This document shows positions 2,359 to 31,765 of a DNA stretch of 64,000 nucleotides, piece after piece. Each line of letters opens with the position of its first letter. Positions within the stretch are counted from its first letter, which is position 1. Location of the stretch: contig NZ_CALPBY010000001.1 of the NCBI RefSeq assembly GCF_943181405.1, positions 124,001 to 188,000 of the forward strand, written 5' to 3'. The translations under genes were made by a program, and so were the position numbers. The notes beneath the pieces are model-generated. The model worked only from the letters and a program-made list of their open reading frames with translations, did not search any database and was not told the DNA's origin. This stretch comes from Cellulosimicrobium sp. Marseille-Q4280 (GTDB lineage: Bacteria > Actinomycetota > Actinomycetes > Actinomycetales > Cellulomonadaceae).

Positions 2359-2469
2359 CGTCGTCCGTCCTGAGGTGCAGTCACCCGCAGACCGTACCGT
2401 CCGCCACGGCGCCTCCACCCCGACTCCGTCGGTGGTCGATATCGCAGTGTTTGCTCTTGCCCGAATGTG

Positions 2470-2498
2470 TTGACTCGTGTGCGTTCGCCAGGGACACT
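2470..2498 (+). promoter_or_regulatory. Candidate promoter for GH43 gene
   Basis: TTGACT at 2470-2475 is 17 nt from GACACT at 2493-2498, about 60 nt upstream of the GH43 ATG. The -35 is good and the -10 weak. The surrounding block is conspicuously T-rich for this genome. Confidence 0.35.
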
Positions 2499-2558
2499 CA
2501 GATTCCCAGGGACGACGCTGCCCCGGGGACACCGCCCCTCACCGTCGAGAGGACACCG

Positions 2559-4754
2559 ATGAGGCCACGCGCCCGGTCCACCCGTTCCCTGCCCTCGCTC
2601 GCCGCGCTCGCGACGAGCGCTCTCGTCGCGCTCGGCCTCGTCGCGTCCGCGACGACCGCCACCGCGGCCGCCCCGAGCACCGCGACCACAGGGCCCGTCG
2701 CAGCGCAGGCCGCTGCCGACGCGACGCCCGTGATCGCACCCGTGATCGACGACAACTTCCCCGACCCCGACATCCTGCTCGTCGACGGCGTCTACCACGC
2801 GTACGCGACGAACTCCGGCGGCGACAACGTCCAGCACCGGACGTCGACGGACCTCGTGACGTGGACCGAGCAGCCCGACGCCGCGCCCGAGCTCGGCGCC
2901 TGGGTGGGGGAGTGCAGCTTCAGCCCGGGCGGCGCGACGGACCGGTGCGTCTGGGCGCCCGAGGTGGCCGCGGTGGAGGGCGGCTACGCGCTCTACTACA
3001 CGGCGCGCGACGCGACGACGGTGCGCCAGTGCATCGGCCTCGCGCTGTCCGACACCCCGGACGGACCGTTCGTGCCCGTCGGCGACGACCCGATCGTCTG
3101 CCCCAACGGCGAGGACGGCACGCAGGACCTCGGCGGCGCGATCGACGCCGGCACGTTCCACGACGGCGACCAGCTCTGGCTGCTGTGGAAGGCCGACGGC
3201 AACTGCTGCACGGGCAAGACGGCGATCATCTACGCCCAGCCCCTCTCGGCCGACGGCACGACGCTCACCGGTCCGGCGACGGAGCTCATCCGTGTCGACC
3301 GCGCGAACGAGGGTCGCGTCGTCGAGGCGCCGACGATCGTCGAGCGCGACGGCACGTACTACCTCATCTACTCCGCCAACGACTTCTACGGCGGCGCCTA
3401 CCGGACGGCCTACGCGACGTCGGACAGCGTGACCGGGCCCTACACCAAGGCCACCACGGAGCTCATGACGAGCGACCGCTTCCGGGGCGACGTGCGCGGC
3501 CCGGGCGGCCAGGACGTCGTGACGACGCCCGACGGTGGCACCGCGATCGTCTTCCACGGCTGGAACGAGGCGTTCACGTACCGCGCGATGTACCTCAGCG
3601 ACCTCGAGTGGTCGGAGGACGGCGTGCCGTCGGTCGCCGCCGCGTCCGACCGCTACCAGGCCGAGGACGGCGTCGTGACGAACGCGCGCGTCGTGCAGGA
3701 CGGCAGCGCGTCGGGGCTCGCCAAGGTCGGCGGGCTCGACTTCGCGGACAGCTCGATCACGGTCGAGGTCTACGCCGAGGAGGCCGGCCCGGCTCTTCTG
3801 GGCGTCCGGTACGCGAACGGCTCGACGGACGGCGCCGAGCGCGTGCCGTCGACCCACACGATGACGGTCAACGGCGAGGACGCCGGGACCGTGACGTTCG
3901 CCCACACGACGTGGGGGAACTGGCAGACGGTCGAGCACGTCGCCGAGCTGGACGCCGGCTGGAACACCGTCACGCTGACCCGTGCCACGTTCTTCGCCGA
4001 GATCGACGCGATCGACGTGTTCCCCGTCCTCGACGAGCCGCGGACCGTCGTCCCGCCGGTGATCCCCGACGACGCGACGCGGTACGAGTTCGAGGACGGC
4101 GTGATCGTGCGCGGCTCCGTGGGCACCGCTGCCGGCGCGTCGGGCGGCGAGAAGGTCGGCGGCCTCGACTTCGCCGACAGCTCCGTGACGCTCCAGGTCC
4201 AGGCCGAGGAGGCGGGGCCGTACACGCTCGCCGTGCGGTTCGCGAACGGGTCGGAGCGCGGGGGGTACACGCTCTCGTCGACCGACTTCGTCACCGTCAA
4301 CGGCGAGGACGCCGGGGTCGTCACCTTCCCGCACACGACGTGGGGCAACTGGCAGAGCGTCGAGCACGACGTCGAGCTCCAGGCCGGGCTCAACACCGTG
4401 ACCTTCACGCGCGGCACCTGGTACACCGAGCTCGACGCGCTCGACGTCTACCCGCGCGAGGAGCCGCCGACGGAGATCGACGTCGCGGTGACCGCGCAGA
4501 CCCGCTGCCTCGGCAACGCGGCCTTCGTCGCGGTGCGGGCGACCAACGACGGGGACGAGGCGCTCGCGCTGACGCTCTCGACGCCGTTCGGCGACAAGAG
4601 CTTCGCCCAGGTGGAGCCCGGCAAGAACGCGTACCAGTCCTTCAAGGTGCGCGGCACGGGGGCGGCAGGGGAGGCCACGGTCACCGCGACCGCCCCGGAC
4701 GGGACGTCGCAGACGTTCACCGCGGCCTACGACGCGCCGAGCTGCGGCGCCTGA
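2559..4754 (+). CDS. Secreted glycoside hydrolase family 43 with two CBM6/35-like modules
   Basis: Exported 731-residue enzyme, probably an arabinan/xylan-active GH43. A Sec signal peptide (twin Arg region, hydrophobic core, TATAAA) covers residues 1-37. The five-bladed propeller starts at DDNFPDPDIL (about 63-72), holding the GH43 general base Asp. The motif EAPTIVERDGTYYLIYS near 255 holds the general acid Glu. Two beta-sandwich modules follow, opening with YQAEDGVV (about 366) and YEFEDGVI (about 509), each with TVNGEDAG and HTTWGNWQ, as in CBM35/CBM6. Residues about 643-731 form a Cys-paired module also found in the phosphatase at 18097 and the peptidase at 29824. ATG 2559 has a GAGAGGA ribosome site. 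Substrate is inferred from family only. Confidence 0.9.
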   Translation: MRPRARSTRSLPSLAALATSALVALGLVASATTATAAAPSTATTGPVAAQAAADATPVIAPVIDDNFPDPDILLVDGVYHAYATNSGGDNVQHRTSTDLVTWTEQPDAAPELGAWVGECSFSPGGATDRCVWAPEVAAVEGGYALYYTARDATTVRQCIGLALSDTPDGPFVPVGDDPIVCPNGEDGTQDLGGAIDAGTFHDGDQLWLLWKADGNCCTGKTAIIYAQPLSADGTTLTGPATELIRVDRANEGRVVEAPTIVERDGTYYLIYSANDFYGGAYRTAYATSDSVTGPYTKATTELMTSDRFRGDVRGPGGQDVVTTPDGGTAIVFHGWNEAFTYRAMYLSDLEWSEDGVPSVAAASDRYQAEDGVVTNARVVQDGSASGLAKVGGLDFADSSITVEVYAEEAGPALLGVRYANGSTDGAERVPSTHTMTVNGEDAGTVTFAHTTWGNWQTVEHVAELDAGWNTVTLTRATFFAEIDAIDVFPVLDEPRTVVPPVIPDDATRYEFEDGVIVRGSVGTAAGASGGEKVGGLDFADSSVTLQVQAEEAGPYTLAVRFANGSERGGYTLSSTDFVTVNGEDAGVVTFPHTTWGNWQSVEHDVELQAGLNTVTFTRGTWYTELDALDVYPREEPPTEIDVAVTAQTRCLGNAAFVAVRATNDGDEALALTLSTPFGDKSFAQVEPGKNAYQSFKVRGTGAAGEATVTATAPDGTSQTFTAAYDAPSCGA

Positions 4755-18096: not shown

Positions 18097-20265
18097 ATGA
18101 CCCCGCATGCCTCCCGGCAGCCCGGCGCGCTGACGCGCGCGGCCGCGGCGACGCTCGCCGCGTCGCTCGTCGGCACCGTCCTCGTCACGAGCAGCATCGC
18201 GACCGCCGCCTCCGCGGTCGCCGACGACGAGTCGCTCCTCAGCACGAGCGGCACCACGTGGCGCTACCTCGACGACAACACGAACCCCGCAGGCGCCGAC
18301 GCGGACCAGCGCGTCTGGACCACGACGGCGTTCGACGACACGGCCTGGAAGTCCGGCACCGGCGCGTTCGGCGCGAAGCGCGGCCAGCCGACGGGCATCG
18401 GTGCGGCGTTCCCGATCACCACCCTGCTGACCCAGTACATCGCCGGCACGACGACGGACGTCCCGACGTTCTTCTTCCGCACCGACGTCGACCTCACCGC
18501 GACGGACCTCGACGGCGTCCCGGCGTTCGAGGGCGAGATCGTCTACGACGACGCCGCGATCGTCTACGTCAACGGCGAGGAGGTCGCGCGCCTCGGCGAC
18601 GACGCCGGCGAGATCACGGAGAACCTGCAGTACCACGGCAACAGCCGCACGGACCCGGTGACGAGCACGTTCGTCGTCCCGGCGGACGCGTTCGCGCCGG
18701 GGGAGAACACGATCTCCGTCGCGCTCTACCAGGACGCCCCGACGAGCTCCGACATCTACCTCGACGTCCGCTCGCTCGTGCCGACGCACGGCGAGGTCCG
18801 CGACGTCGCGCTCAACGTCGGCGCGGACGAGACGCAGGCGAACGTCGCGTGGTTCTCGACCCTGCCCGGCGCGGGCGAGGTTCAGTGGACGCGTGCCGAC
18901 GAGGCGACCGACGCCGCGGGCGACCTCTCGTGGGAGGGCGCGGCGACGGCGTCGTCCACGGGCGGCGCGTCCGCCGACGGCGCGACGTACCACCACGCCA
19001 CGATGACCGGCCTGGAGGAGGCCTCCTCCTACGTGTACCGCGTGGGCAGCGCCTCCTCCGGCTGGTCGGAGCCCAGCACGTTCGACACCGGCACGTTCGG
19101 GGACGAGTTCTCGTTCCTGTTCGTCGGTGACGCGCAGATCGGCGCGAGCGGCAACGCCACGAACGACGCCGCGCGCTGGGCCGAGAACCTCGGCACGATG
19201 ACCGCTCGCCACCCGGACGCGTCGTTCCTCGTCTCCGCGGGGGACCAGGTCGAGCACGCGGGCAGCGCCCAGCAGTACACGGGCTTCCTCGCCTCGCAGC
19301 AGATGCGCGAGCTGCGGTTCGCGACGCAGGACGGCAACCACGACACGGCGAGCGCGCTGTACGACCAGCACTTCGCGATGCCGAACGTCTCGGCCGAGCA
19401 GCGCCGCGACTACTGGTACGGCTACAACGACGTGCTCGTCGTCGGCATCGACTCGAACGACTGGAGCGAGGCGGACCTCGCCGGGCACGAGGCGTTCCTG
19501 CGCGACGTGGTCGGCACGCACGGCGACTCCTACGACTGGGTCCTCGTGACGTTCCACCACTCGCTGTACAGCCAGGCGTTCCACTCGCGCGACCGCGACG
19601 TCGTCGCGATGCGCGACGCCCTGTCGCCGGTGTTCAGCGACCTGGGCGTCGACCTGGTGCTCGCGGGCCACGACCACATCTACACCCGCAGCCACCTCAT
19701 GGAGGGCACGACGCCGGTCGCCCCGGCGACCGACCCCGCCGTCGGCGACGTGCTCGTCCCCGACGAGGACCAGGTCCTCTACGTGACCGGGAACTCCGCG
19801 AGCGGCTCGAAGTACTACGGCTTCGACGGCGACAAGCCGTGGACCGCGCGCTGGGAGCAGGAGCGTACGCCGAGCTACTCCGACGTCGACGTCACGCCCG
19901 AGGCGCTGACGATCACGACCTACGAGACCGCGACCGAGCGCGTCATGGACCGGGTCACGCTGCAGCGCGCGCCGCAGGGCCCTGAGCTCGTCGAGGTCAC
20001 CGCCCAGACCCGCTGCCTCGCGGGCACGGCCTACGTCGCGGTCCGCGCGACGAACGGCGAGGAGGTGCCGGTCGACGTCACGCTCGCGACGCCGTTCGGC
20101 ACCCGCGCGTACGCGGACGTCGCGCCCGGCAGGGCGGCGTACCAGTCCTTCCCGACGCGCACGACGTCGGTCGAGGCCGGCACGGTCACGGTCACCGCGG
20201 CTCTGCCCGACGGCGGAGCCTCCCGGGCGTACGACGTCCCGGTGGATGCCCTGACCTGCTCCTGA
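18097..20265 (+). CDS. Secreted metallophosphoesterase (purple acid phosphatase-like)
   Basis: A 722-residue exported phosphatase. The signal peptide ends near residue 39 (ATAASA). Residues about 45-230 form a beta-sandwich (TTWRYLDDNTNPAG, FFFRTDVDL). A fibronectin III-type purple-acid-phosphatase N-domain spans about 230-325. The binuclear metal core has FLFVGDAQIG (about 342), SAGDQVEH (about 382), GNHD (about 413), TFHHSLYS (about 486) and AGHDHIYTR (about 525). Residues about 628-722 repeat the Cys-paired module of the GH43 and M28 proteins. ATG 18097 has AAGGAA upstream. Confidence 0.9.
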   Translation: MTPHASRQPGALTRAAAATLAASLVGTVLVTSSIATAASAVADDESLLSTSGTTWRYLDDNTNPAGADADQRVWTTTAFDDTAWKSGTGAFGAKRGQPTGIGAAFPITTLLTQYIAGTTTDVPTFFFRTDVDLTATDLDGVPAFEGEIVYDDAAIVYVNGEEVARLGDDAGEITENLQYHGNSRTDPVTSTFVVPADAFAPGENTISVALYQDAPTSSDIYLDVRSLVPTHGEVRDVALNVGADETQANVAWFSTLPGAGEVQWTRADEATDAAGDLSWEGAATASSTGGASADGATYHHATMTGLEEASSYVYRVGSASSGWSEPSTFDTGTFGDEFSFLFVGDAQIGASGNATNDAARWAENLGTMTARHPDASFLVSAGDQVEHAGSAQQYTGFLASQQMRELRFATQDGNHDTASALYDQHFAMPNVSAEQRRDYWYGYNDVLVVGIDSNDWSEADLAGHEAFLRDVVGTHGDSYDWVLVTFHHSLYSQAFHSRDRDVVAMRDALSPVFSDLGVDLVLAGHDHIYTRSHLMEGTTPVAPATDPAVGDVLVPDEDQVLYVTGNSASGSKYYGFDGDKPWTARWEQERTPSYSDVDVTPEALTITTYETATERVMDRVTLQRAPQGPELVEVTAQTRCLAGTAYVAVRATNGEEVPVDVTLATPFGTRAYADVAPGRAAYQSFPTRTTSVEAGTVTVTAALPDGGASRAYDVPVDALTCS

Positions 20266-29823: not shown

Positions 29824-31587
29824 TCAGCCGCAGCTGATCGCGTCGTACGGCACCTCGTACACCTGGTGGCGCGGGTCGCCGTCGTTCCACCGGTACGCGC
29901 TGACCGTGGCGCTGCCGGCCTCGACCGACGCCGAGCGGGTGCTGAACGACTGGTACGCGTTCGAGCCGGACCCGACCTTCGTGAACTTCTTCTGGCCGAA
30001 GTCCGTGGCGATCCGGACGTCCGCCCACCCGGTCTCGTCGTTCGTCGCGCGCACCGCGACGTACGCCGTGCCGTTCAGGCAGCGGGCCTCGGCCGTGAGC
30101 GCCGTGAGCTCCGGGTTGCCCGCGCCGTTGACCGGGAACGTGTCGTCGGCGAGGGCCGCGACCGCGTGGCCGATCGCGCGCGACATGATGTCGAGCGCCG
30201 TCGGGTCCACGTTGTCGATCGTGTCCTCGGGAGAGTGGTAGTTCGGGTCGTAGAAGATGCCCTCGGTGCCGCCGAACAGCGCGACCTCCTCGGCGGTCTT
30301 CGAGCCGTCGGCGCCGGTGAACAGCCCGGACGCCGGGACGCCGTTGTTGATGAACGCCTGGTAGTCGGAGCGGCCCGAGAACTCGGTGTCGACCCACGGC
30401 TGCCCGATCTGGTCGAAGTAGTCCGTGAAGACGGCCTCGGTCTCGGCCGAGCCCTCCGGCACGGGGACCGGGGCCTCGTGCGTCGACTCGTCGGCGTCGT
30501 ACACGCCGATGATGTAGTTCGGCGAGCCGACCATGTCGAAGTTGAGGTAGGTGGCGATGTCGTCGAGCGCCGCGGGGTCGTTCGCGACGAGGTCGTCGAC
30601 GTAGTGCGTCGAGCCGACGAGCCCGACCTCCTCCGCGCCCCACCACGCGAACCGCACCGCGTTGTCGGGCCAGCCGTCCTCCTCCGCGGCGGCGGCGAGC
30701 TGGACCGCGACCTCGAGGATCGCCATCGAGCCCGACCCGTTGTCGTTGATGCCCGGGCCCTCCTCGACGCCGTCGAGGTGCGCGCCGGCCATGACGACGT
30801 TGTTCGCGCGGCCGCCCGGTGTCTGGGCGATGACGTTGAAGGTCTCGAACTCGTCGACGTGGTACTGGTAGTCGTAGGTCGCCTCGGCGGCGGCGCCCCC
30901 CTCGAGCGCGGCGAGGATCTCCTGGCCGTCCGACAGCGAGAGCCCGACCGTCGGGACCCACGCGCCCGCGGCACCGAGCGTCGGGTTCAGCGGTTCGTCG
31001 ACGTTGTTGTAGAGGATCACCGCGACGGCCCCGTCGGCCATGGCGTTCGTGACCTTGATCGAGAAGGCGCACGTGCCGCGGCTGACGAGCGCGACGGCGC
31101 CCGTCGCGTCGACGCCGTCCCAGTCCGCGGCGGTGCAGCCGTGGCGCAGGTCGTCGACGGGCTGGACGATCGGCCCCGTGACGCCGTCGTCCGGGGTGGC
31201 GGGGGAGAACTCGGCGGCGTACAGGTCATCGGTCGGCTCGACCCCGGCCGCCGTGAGCGACAGGTCGTCCACGACGAGGTCCTCGAACGTGAAGTACTGG
31301 CGCTCGGGCGTGTACCCGGCGGCCGTCAGGGCCTCCTCGACGTACACGGCGCTGGCCTCGTACCCGGGGGTCTCGAGCGCGCGGCTGTTGCCGTTCGCGT
31401 CGGCGATGGCCTGCAGGTCCACCAGGCGGTCCATGACCGCGTCGCCGGTGACGAGGTCCTCGAGCGGGAGCGGGTCTGCGGCGGCGCGCAGGGCGCCGGC
31501 CGGGGCGGCGCCCACCGGCGCGGCGGACAGGACCGCGAGCACGAGGCTCGCGGCGGCTGCGGACGGGACGAACGATCGTGGTCTCAC
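29824..31587 (-). CDS. Secreted M28-family zinc aminopeptidase with PA domain
   Basis: A 587-residue exported peptidase like Streptomyces aminopeptidase S. Signal peptide about 1-30 (VLAVLSAAPVGAAPAGA). A PA domain (about 130-230; VALVSRGTCAFSIKVTNAMA) is inserted before the catalytic core. Zinc ligands lie in VVMAGAHLDGV (about 266), GINDNGSGSMA (about 278), AWWGAEEVGLVGS (about 318), LNFDMVGS (about 349) and NYHSPEDTID (about 450). Residues about 495-587 are the Cys-paired module shared with GH43 and the phosphatase. GTG 31587 follows GAGGAGG. Confidence 0.92.
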   Translation of the reverse strand: MRPRSFVPSAAAASLVLAVLSAAPVGAAPAGALRAAADPLPLEDLVTGDAVMDRLVDLQAIADANGNSRALETPGYEASAVYVEEALTAAGYTPERQYFTFEDLVVDDLSLTAAGVEPTDDLYAAEFSPATPDDGVTGPIVQPVDDLRHGCTAADWDGVDATGAVALVSRGTCAFSIKVTNAMADGAVAVILYNNVDEPLNPTLGAAGAWVPTVGLSLSDGQEILAALEGGAAAEATYDYQYHVDEFETFNVIAQTPGGRANNVVMAGAHLDGVEEGPGINDNGSGSMAILEVAVQLAAAAEEDGWPDNAVRFAWWGAEEVGLVGSTHYVDDLVANDPAALDDIATYLNFDMVGSPNYIIGVYDADESTHEAPVPVPEGSAETEAVFTDYFDQIGQPWVDTEFSGRSDYQAFINNGVPASGLFTGADGSKTAEEVALFGGTEGIFYDPNYHSPEDTIDNVDPTALDIMSRAIGHAVAALADDTFPVNGAGNPELTALTAEARCLNGTAYVAVRATNDETGWADVRIATDFGQKKFTKVGSGSNAYQSFSTRSASVEAGSATVSAYRWNDGDPRHQVYEVPYDAISCG

Positions 31588-31765
31588 GCATCCTCCTCGG
31601 CAGTGGCCCCCGCCGGCCGCCCCCGGTCGTGCCGAGGGGTCAGCCGAGTCGCACACGAGACGCGACGGTGCGAGGACTCGTGTGATCGTGAGCGTAGGCG
31701 CTGCCCGGGGCGCCGTCGAGAGGTCGACGGCTCGGGGTCAGGCGGGAGGGCGGCTCAGTGTCGGG

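Follow-up and report, generated by a model that had tools for sequence, protein, structure and literature searches.

A C-terminal module shared by many secreted Cellulosimicrobium enzymes is a probable docking tag for a WxL-type surface platform

In Firmicutes, gene clusters of the CscA/CscB/CscC type, which encode a WxLIP protein, a small WxL protein and a large WxL protein, have been proposed by Siezen et al. to form surface complexes for carbon acquisition (PMC1534035). The WxL domain of the large proteins lies at the C-terminus and is thought to bind peptidoglycan (PMC9772566), and a 2023 proposal has WxLIP, which carries a membrane helix, binding WxL on peptidoglycan (PMC10599100). Actinobacteria go unmentioned in the main texts of two recent WxL papers, and our search of the open-licence literature found no paper on WxL in Actinobacteria or Micromonospora, nor any on the module described here. 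For DUF916 (the Pfam family WxLIP_PGBD) in actinobacteria, that literature yielded a single paper, on lactobacilli and bifidobacteria of the honeybee gut.

A large, cellulosome-like enzyme particle has been described from Cellulosimicrobium itself. Dou et al. (2015, PMC4562250) characterized a culture-fluid particle of C. cellulans F16, of 17.9 MDa by light scattering, in which they identified 27 proteins (predicted glucanases, xylanases, mannases, peptidases and laccases). They report no cohesin or dockerin in the genome or complex, and call the subunit interaction not clear. The key subunit, with the Pfam order ThuA-GSDH-PKD-CBM6-PKD, is full-length inside the complex. Proteinase K releases a form without the C-terminal ~500 residues, and a similarly shortened form occurs free in the fluid; both were judged monomeric, and the truncated subunit is much less stable than the complex (PMC4562250).

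Here we examine a module that ends three proteins encoded in one window, a stretch of 64,000 nucleotides of Cellulosimicrobium sp. Marseille-Q4280 to which all positions below refer. We consider it probable that this module is a dockerin-like C-terminal tag attaching enzymes to a WxL-type surface platform, and propose that WxL/WxLIP surface systems thereby gain a C-terminal module of a new type. Such a module would mark, across the genome, which secreted enzymes form a group, and might supply enzyme engineering with a new docking pair. The three proteins and their tails are as follows:

2451..4754, forward strand: GH43 protein with two stretches of CBM35-like domains and the module (open reading frame, Pfam); 2451 is the earliest in-frame start, and the ATG at 2559 is, by eye, the more likely one
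4473..4748, forward strand: module at the end of the GH43 protein (HMM boundaries), with Cys residues at TRC-L and S-C-GA
18097..20265, forward strand: signal peptide-like N-terminus, metallophosphatase of purple-acid-phosphatase type, and module (open reading frame, Pfam)
19981..20262, forward strand: module at the end of the metallophosphatase (HMM boundaries)
29824..31656, reverse strand: PA and peptidase M28 protein with terminal module (open reading frame, Pfam)
29827..30114, reverse strand: module at the end of the M28 peptidase (HMM boundaries)

The tails are genuine C-termini of long open reading frames and align end to end, which bears out the initial annotation in treating them as copies of one module. 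Over the full-length alignment the other two tails are 53% and 47% identical to the GH43 tail, and 34 columns are invariant across all three, both Cys among them. The motifs named earlier are all present: TAxxRCL reads TAQTRCL, TAQTRCL and TAEARCL in the GH43, metallophosphatase and M28 tails, A(F/Y)VAVRATN is AFVAVRATN in one tail and AYVAVRATN in two, the FG strand appears as FGDK, FGTR and FGQK, AYQSF occurs in 3/3, and the terminal Cys lies in the endings SCGA, TCS and SCG. The catalytic bodies are indeed unrelated, Pfam assigning them to GH43 (with CBM35), metallophosphatase, and PA plus M28 peptidase. Chance or low-complexity similarity is ruled out by the alignment together with profile searches, whose best match in the same genome has an E-value of 4e-50.

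Against Pfam, the three window tails gave no match above cut-off (best CFSR, E 0.005; Big_1, 0.036; Big_7, 0.056), and neither a CBM nor a dockerin model matched them at E ≤ 10, so the possibility that the segment belongs to a characterised CBM family fell away. PHROGs returned one weak match to the tails (E 0.27), NCBIfam models placed nothing within the tail regions of the three full proteins, and a PDB sequence search produced four hits, of which three are de novo designed Ig proteins (E 4e-4 to 0.95) and the fourth is unrelated (E 1). A beta-sandwich is a plausible fold for the module. It resembles CBM2, a domain of about 100 residues with a terminal Cys pair that is C-terminal in most copies read, but profile similarity is absent: a relationship to CBM2 is unsupported, hhalign of the module against the CBM2 set of its own genome giving 3% probability. 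By coordinates, none of the nine CBM2 hits in that genome lies inside a tagged open reading frame, an exclusion that we do not use as evidence because its p ranges from 0.03 to 0.31 with the assumed number of secreted proteins. Kinship to WxL-like or WxLIP sequence is likewise unsupported (hhalign 1.5% and 0.7% probability, against sets that hold no Firmicute WxL domain). The module has no conserved Trp and does not correspond to the large-WxL C-terminal domain with its two Trp-x-Leu motifs. The cellulosome offers a likeness in that one small non-catalytic domain is common to many enzymes, but the three window tails lack a dockerin match, and we know of no multi-cohesin-like scaffold.

A profile of the three tails has 51 matches at E ≤ 1 in its own genome (4.86 Mb, 12 contigs), the best at 4e-50 and 48 of them below 3e-7; the 51 collapse to 48 non-redundant open reading frames that carry a module of ~95 residues. 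Sixteen other Cellulosimicrobium genomes hold 26-64 matches each, and the module is present in 17/17 genomes of the genus searched. The suggested genome-wide tag is thus upheld, with hits reaching far beyond the three proteins from which the profile was built. Outside Cellulosimicrobium the module is rare. Within the family and order, two of 22 further genera searched have it (four and two copies), and in an even sample of 396 genomes across the phylum seven have a match at E ≤ 0.001, one of which (G205, 9.5e-4) is marginal and was dropped, leaving six tag-bearing genomes with our own included. Among the best 80 of 433 matching stretches, the named ones are nearly all from Cellulosimicrobium and the further ones from Micromonosporaceae. 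Records of Sphaerisporangium cinnabarinum ATCC 31213 (L103, L123, L137, L142, L148) contain module copies 69-83% identical to the query; the record is probably misnamed, because these copies resemble those of Cellulosimicrobium. Carriage by phages was considered and rejected, as no phage record matches.

The module ends within two residues of the stop codon in 42 of the 48 open reading frames of its own genome; among 205 complete modules from all loci collected, 176 lie 0-1 residues from the stop and 201 at most 12. A simple hydrophobicity rule finds a signal-peptide-like N-terminus in 43/48, and the five that fail it include the three shortest, one of them at a contig end. The Pfam scan of 47 of the 48 (a 97-residue fragment, L071, was left out) returned mutually unrelated partners, with glycosidases, phosphoesterases, peptidases and an asparaginase among them. 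The glycosidases are GH43 (eight, one just under the Pfam cut-off), GH92 (four, one with GH76), GH2 (two) and single cases of GH13 pullulanase, GH10 with polysaccharide deacetylase, GH127, GH97, GH59, GH30 and arabinofuranosidase. Six proteins carry ThuA and/or GSDH, three are 3-keto-disaccharide hydrolase-like, and two have a TIM-barrel AP_endonuc_2 domain (one already counted with GSDH); the others are four phosphoesterases or nucleases, peptidases M28 and S8, the asparaginase and one alpha/beta hydrolase. Three tagged open reading frames have no Pfam hit and four have Ig-like or F5/8-type domains only. Nine tagged proteins scanned from other genera carry GH43 (six), GH20, ThuA and metallophosphatase domains.

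Both Cys are present in 186 of the 205 complete modules, neither in 17, and the first only in two, both of which lose the reading frame after ~55 residues; further Cys between the two positions occur in none of the 205. Exactly one residue follows the last Cys in 159 of the 186 two-Cys modules, and none in 15. The 17 Cys-less modules do not amount to 17 independent losses, as two are degenerate internal repeats of one aberrant protein (L074, below) and about nine appear to represent a single orthologous GH43 gene. Joint loss and retention match the expectation for a disulfide, and thus support the earlier suggestion of a disulfide-closed domain, with a predicted bond between the two terminal Cys. 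Positions R14, R25, N28, Y57, Q58 and R63 are kept in 42-45 of 47 module copies of the genome irrespective of the enzyme, which is what recognition of the tag by one partner would predict. The module is mostly acidic (median pI 4.5).

Two irregular loci deserve mention beside this pattern. In L199 (G000:C8:46885-47037) and L150 the module frame is lost after ~55 residues, for which a decayed gene, phase variation and sequencing error are candidate causes. A single open reading frame, L074 (G000:C1, about 279.8-285.1 kb), combines sigma-70 region 2 and a putative zinc-finger domain with several degenerate module-like repeats, which are weak matches, all internal and none C-terminal; it is reminiscent of sigma systems responsive to extracellular substrates and might regulate the tagged enzymes.

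The surroundings of tagged genes suggest a partner. Plasmids of Clavibacter phaseoli and Cellulosimicrobium protaetiae carry, next to tagged genes, a DUF916 gene and a gene for a secreted protein of ~210 residues, and operon-like runs of a tagged gene, a WxL-like gene and a WxLIP gene occur in Nonomuraea and in genomes G022, G261, G304 (three loci) and G352. Micromonosporaceae have a tagged gene with a WxL-like gene, and WxLIP was not found in the flanks of their loci L153, L154 and L165. Three of the four WxLIP proteins scanned pass the WxLIP_PGBD cut-off (28.1 versus 27.3 bits in our genome; 25.1 in Nonomuraea); by eye, the aligned sequences (alignment A5) have a hydrophobic C-terminal stretch followed by basic residues, read here as a membrane helix. 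The small WxL-like proteins (alignment A6, rows of 200-251 residues) have D-T/S-R, without Gly, followed by W-x-V, and a pI of 4.1-4.6, and no second Trp-x-Leu motif was seen at their C-terminus. Pfam WxL models match none of six such proteins at E ≤ 1 (the sole hit, DUF4402 at E 0.21, is below cut-off), so the name WxL-like rests on layout, size, pI and motif.

Compared with the Firmicute WxL clusters, as far as the cited texts describe them (PMC1534035, PMC9772566, PMC10599100), these loci share a DUF916/WxLIP protein with a C-terminal membrane helix, a small acidic secreted protein of ~210 residues in which Asp-x-Arg precedes a Trp-x-aliphatic motif, and large multidomain partners that have their common domain at the C-terminus. 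They differ in that the large partners end in a Cys-flanked module of ~95 residues without Trp-x-Leu, that the small protein is unmatched by Pfam WxL, and that in Cellulosimicrobium ~50 scattered genes appear to share one or two pairs. The layout of the tag loci is that of Firmicute WxL clusters, with the module standing where the C-terminal WxL domain would be.

To put numbers on the linkage, genomes outside the genus were searched for both tag and WxL-like genes, using for the latter an alignment of eight tag-adjacent members, three non-adjacent ones and two divergent ones. The 32 WxL-like matches were divided post hoc, on their scores, into 18 close homologues in six genomes (234-317 bits, except for a contig-end piece at 81 bits) and 14 divergent paralogues (at most 131 bits, longer open frames), three of them in the tag-free genome G024. 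All 18 close matches begin 26-408 bp downstream of a tag match on the same strand, and none of the 14 divergent paralogues has a same-strand tag within 4.6 kb upstream; by chance, ~0.01 of all 32 matches would be expected within 500 bp of a tag. Counted from the 51 tags of nine genomes outside the genus, a close WxL-like gene lies within 10 kb in 30 and within 25 kb in 38; for the remaining 13 it is more than 25 kb away or absent from the contig, which counts against docking.

Tag and platform also occur together across genomes. Among relatives, Pfam finds WxLIP (E ≤ 0.001) in 18/19 tag-bearing versus 1/20 tag-free genomes, the lone exception being a 75% complete genome that has a partial WxL-like gene; by genus, the counts are 3/3 versus 1/20 (Fisher p 0.002, kinship ignored). 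In the phylum sample, at the same threshold, WxLIP is present in 5/6 tag-bearing genomes versus 28/390 others (Fisher p 2e-5, kinship ignored). The family cut-off is exceeded in 17/19 of the hit genomes among relatives and 25/33 of those in the phylum sample, and our own genome is counted in both sets. An actinobacterial WxLIP profile, run on 31 chosen genomes, gave 8/10 tag-bearing versus 1/21 others. Individual genomes depart from the rule: G379 has one tag and no hit to WxLIP or WxL-like searches, G293 and G036 have tags and only a divergent pair far away, and G024 has divergent pairs and no tag.

Within Cellulosimicrobium the arrangement is looser. The close WxL-like/WxLIP pair has no tag in its flanks (~9 kb where the contig allows) at 15/15 non-plasmid loci, which counts against docking; the plasmid copy of C. 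protaetiae is the exception, with a tagged gene in its flanks, and the divergent pair has a tag in its flanks at 3/8 loci. Our genome has two WxL-like/WxLIP pairs, one on contig C7 with the nearest tag 32 kb away, the other on C6 with the nearest tag at 5.7 kb. With the close pair standing apart from the tags, about fifty enzymes would share one or two platforms.

Orthologues of two tagged enzymes indicate what else can occupy the C-terminal slot. Among 79 genomes of the order searched with the M28 peptidase, 14 match at E ≤ 1e-60, our own included; of the 14 tails read from other genomes, three, all of one genus, end in an LPRTG sortase anchor, which speaks for a retention role of the slot. 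The other 11/14 lack any recognisable anchor, which shows that the slot can be dispensed with and counts against docking. For the nuclease, we read 29 tails from other genomes, namely the subset of matches with loci, and found LPRTG in 3/29, LAETG-type anchors in two, SLH-like repeats in two and chitin-binding-like repeats in about four, the rest having other tails; slot types other than LPXTG were assigned by eye. The module itself is absent from every M28 or nuclease orthologue locus of other genomes. The slot thus appears sometimes, not always, to hold retention devices. LPXTG anchors and SLH domains share it in some orthologues of both enzymes, but the tag has neither sortase motif nor membrane helix, and as 180/186 two-Cys tags end 0-2 residues past the last Cys there is no room for an LPXTG anchor, for which our genome has one Pfam hit. 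Four nuclease orthologues of another family (L237, L238, L240, L241) end in a different conserved Cys-containing tail with Trp/Tyr, and six others (L245, L248, L253 and L247, L250, L254) in Trp-rich hydrophobic tails; these alternative tails are possibly further C-terminal tags.

The module may explain how the published Cellulosimicrobium hemicellulosome assembles, and offers a testable answer to the question of 2015, how a 27-protein complex holds together without cohesin and dockerin. All ThuA-GSDH proteins of our genome (L090, L091, L201) end in the module, as do homologues from another Cellulosimicrobium (L167), G304 (L205), G022 (L376) and Nonomuraea (L265); for one further hit (L135) the end of the protein is missing. 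The published truncation removes ~500 residues, a stretch longer than the tag, which counts against this line of argument. We infer that the tag system corresponds to the reported multienzyme complex, and it is even conceivable that the 20-65 nm particles are membrane vesicles bearing WxLIP to which the enzymes are docked. That the module plays the part of a dockerin in a non-cellulosomal complex of Actinomycetota, docking ~50 enzymes to a WxL-type platform and so assembling the hemicellulosome, we offer tentatively, as a possibility rather than an expectation. At three loci (L288, L300, L306) a divergent WxL-like/WxLIP pair lies near an untagged protein with a terminal Ig-like stretch, a distant ThuA-GSDH homologue without the module; the arrangement may represent a related platform that has a large partner of its own.

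In the docking model, enzymes would be exported by an ordinary signal peptide, and the tag would fold extracellularly into a small beta domain closed by a disulfide. It would then attach each enzyme to a platform consisting of the small WxL-like protein and of WxLIP (DUF916), its partner anchored in the membrane. WxLIP would fix the assembly to the membrane, and many unrelated enzymes would thus be held together, on the envelope, or both. The platform genes would act in cis in most other tag-bearing genomes examined, where they adjoin tagged enzymes, and in trans in Cellulosimicrobium, where one or few separate gene pairs would serve about 50 scattered enzymes. The small WxL-like protein is, from its gene position, the best candidate partner; its binding by the tag, the fold and the surface location are what we infer. 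A docking or retention tag is probable because in other bacteria such genes often adjoin known surface-platform genes. Of the common jobs that the initial annotation had envisaged, retention or assembly is favoured by the WxL/WxLIP neighbourhood, the orthologue slot and the published complex; glycan binding found no positive support, and special export is unneeded, because 43/48 proteins already have a signal-peptide-like N-terminus.

The strongest rival, on balance somewhat unlikely, is that the tag binds the wall directly, through peptidoglycan or a secondary polymer in the style of large WxL proteins, with the WxL-like protein and WxLIP merely neighbours in a surface complex; it overlaps with docking, and the two are not mutually exclusive. 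The C-terminal WxL domains of Firmicutes, thought in the cited text to bind peptidoglycan (PMC9772566), and the sortase anchors in the same slot of some orthologues speak for it, but tight linkage to a single small secreted protein points to it as the partner, and mostly acidic tags do not suggest binding to an anionic wall polymer. A new family of carbohydrate-binding module, targeting enzymes to plant, fungal or own-wall polysaccharide, would fit the many glycosidase partners, often with other CBMs, and a size, flanking Cys and C-terminal place that recall CBM2. Yet phosphoesterases, a nuclease, peptidases and an asparaginase are also partners, the tag is single and terminal (the aberrant L074 excepted), no CBM family matches the three window tails, the comparison with the genome's CBM2 set gave 3%, and the WxL/WxLIP link goes unexplained unless the wall itself is the ligand, all of which makes this reading improbable.

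Still less likely is a cap for folding, stability or protease resistance with no binding partner. A terminal disulfide and flush termini would suit it, and the stability of the published complex relative to its truncated subunit (PMC4562250) agrees, but it leaves unexplained the adjoining WxL-like gene, the enrichment in platform-bearing genomes and the conserved Arg/Tyr/Gln positions. That the module merely spreads as a 3' gene cassette with no common function is very unlikely: copies are scattered and flush with the stop codon, as a cassette would be, but strong protein conservation over 48 paralogues and operon linkage argue for selection.

In three genomes from other genera (G304, G352 and G293; L203-L208), some of the tagged enzymes cluster in islands of three to seven genes. 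These islands look like a horizontally transferred degradation locus, with the platform included in two of the three genomes.
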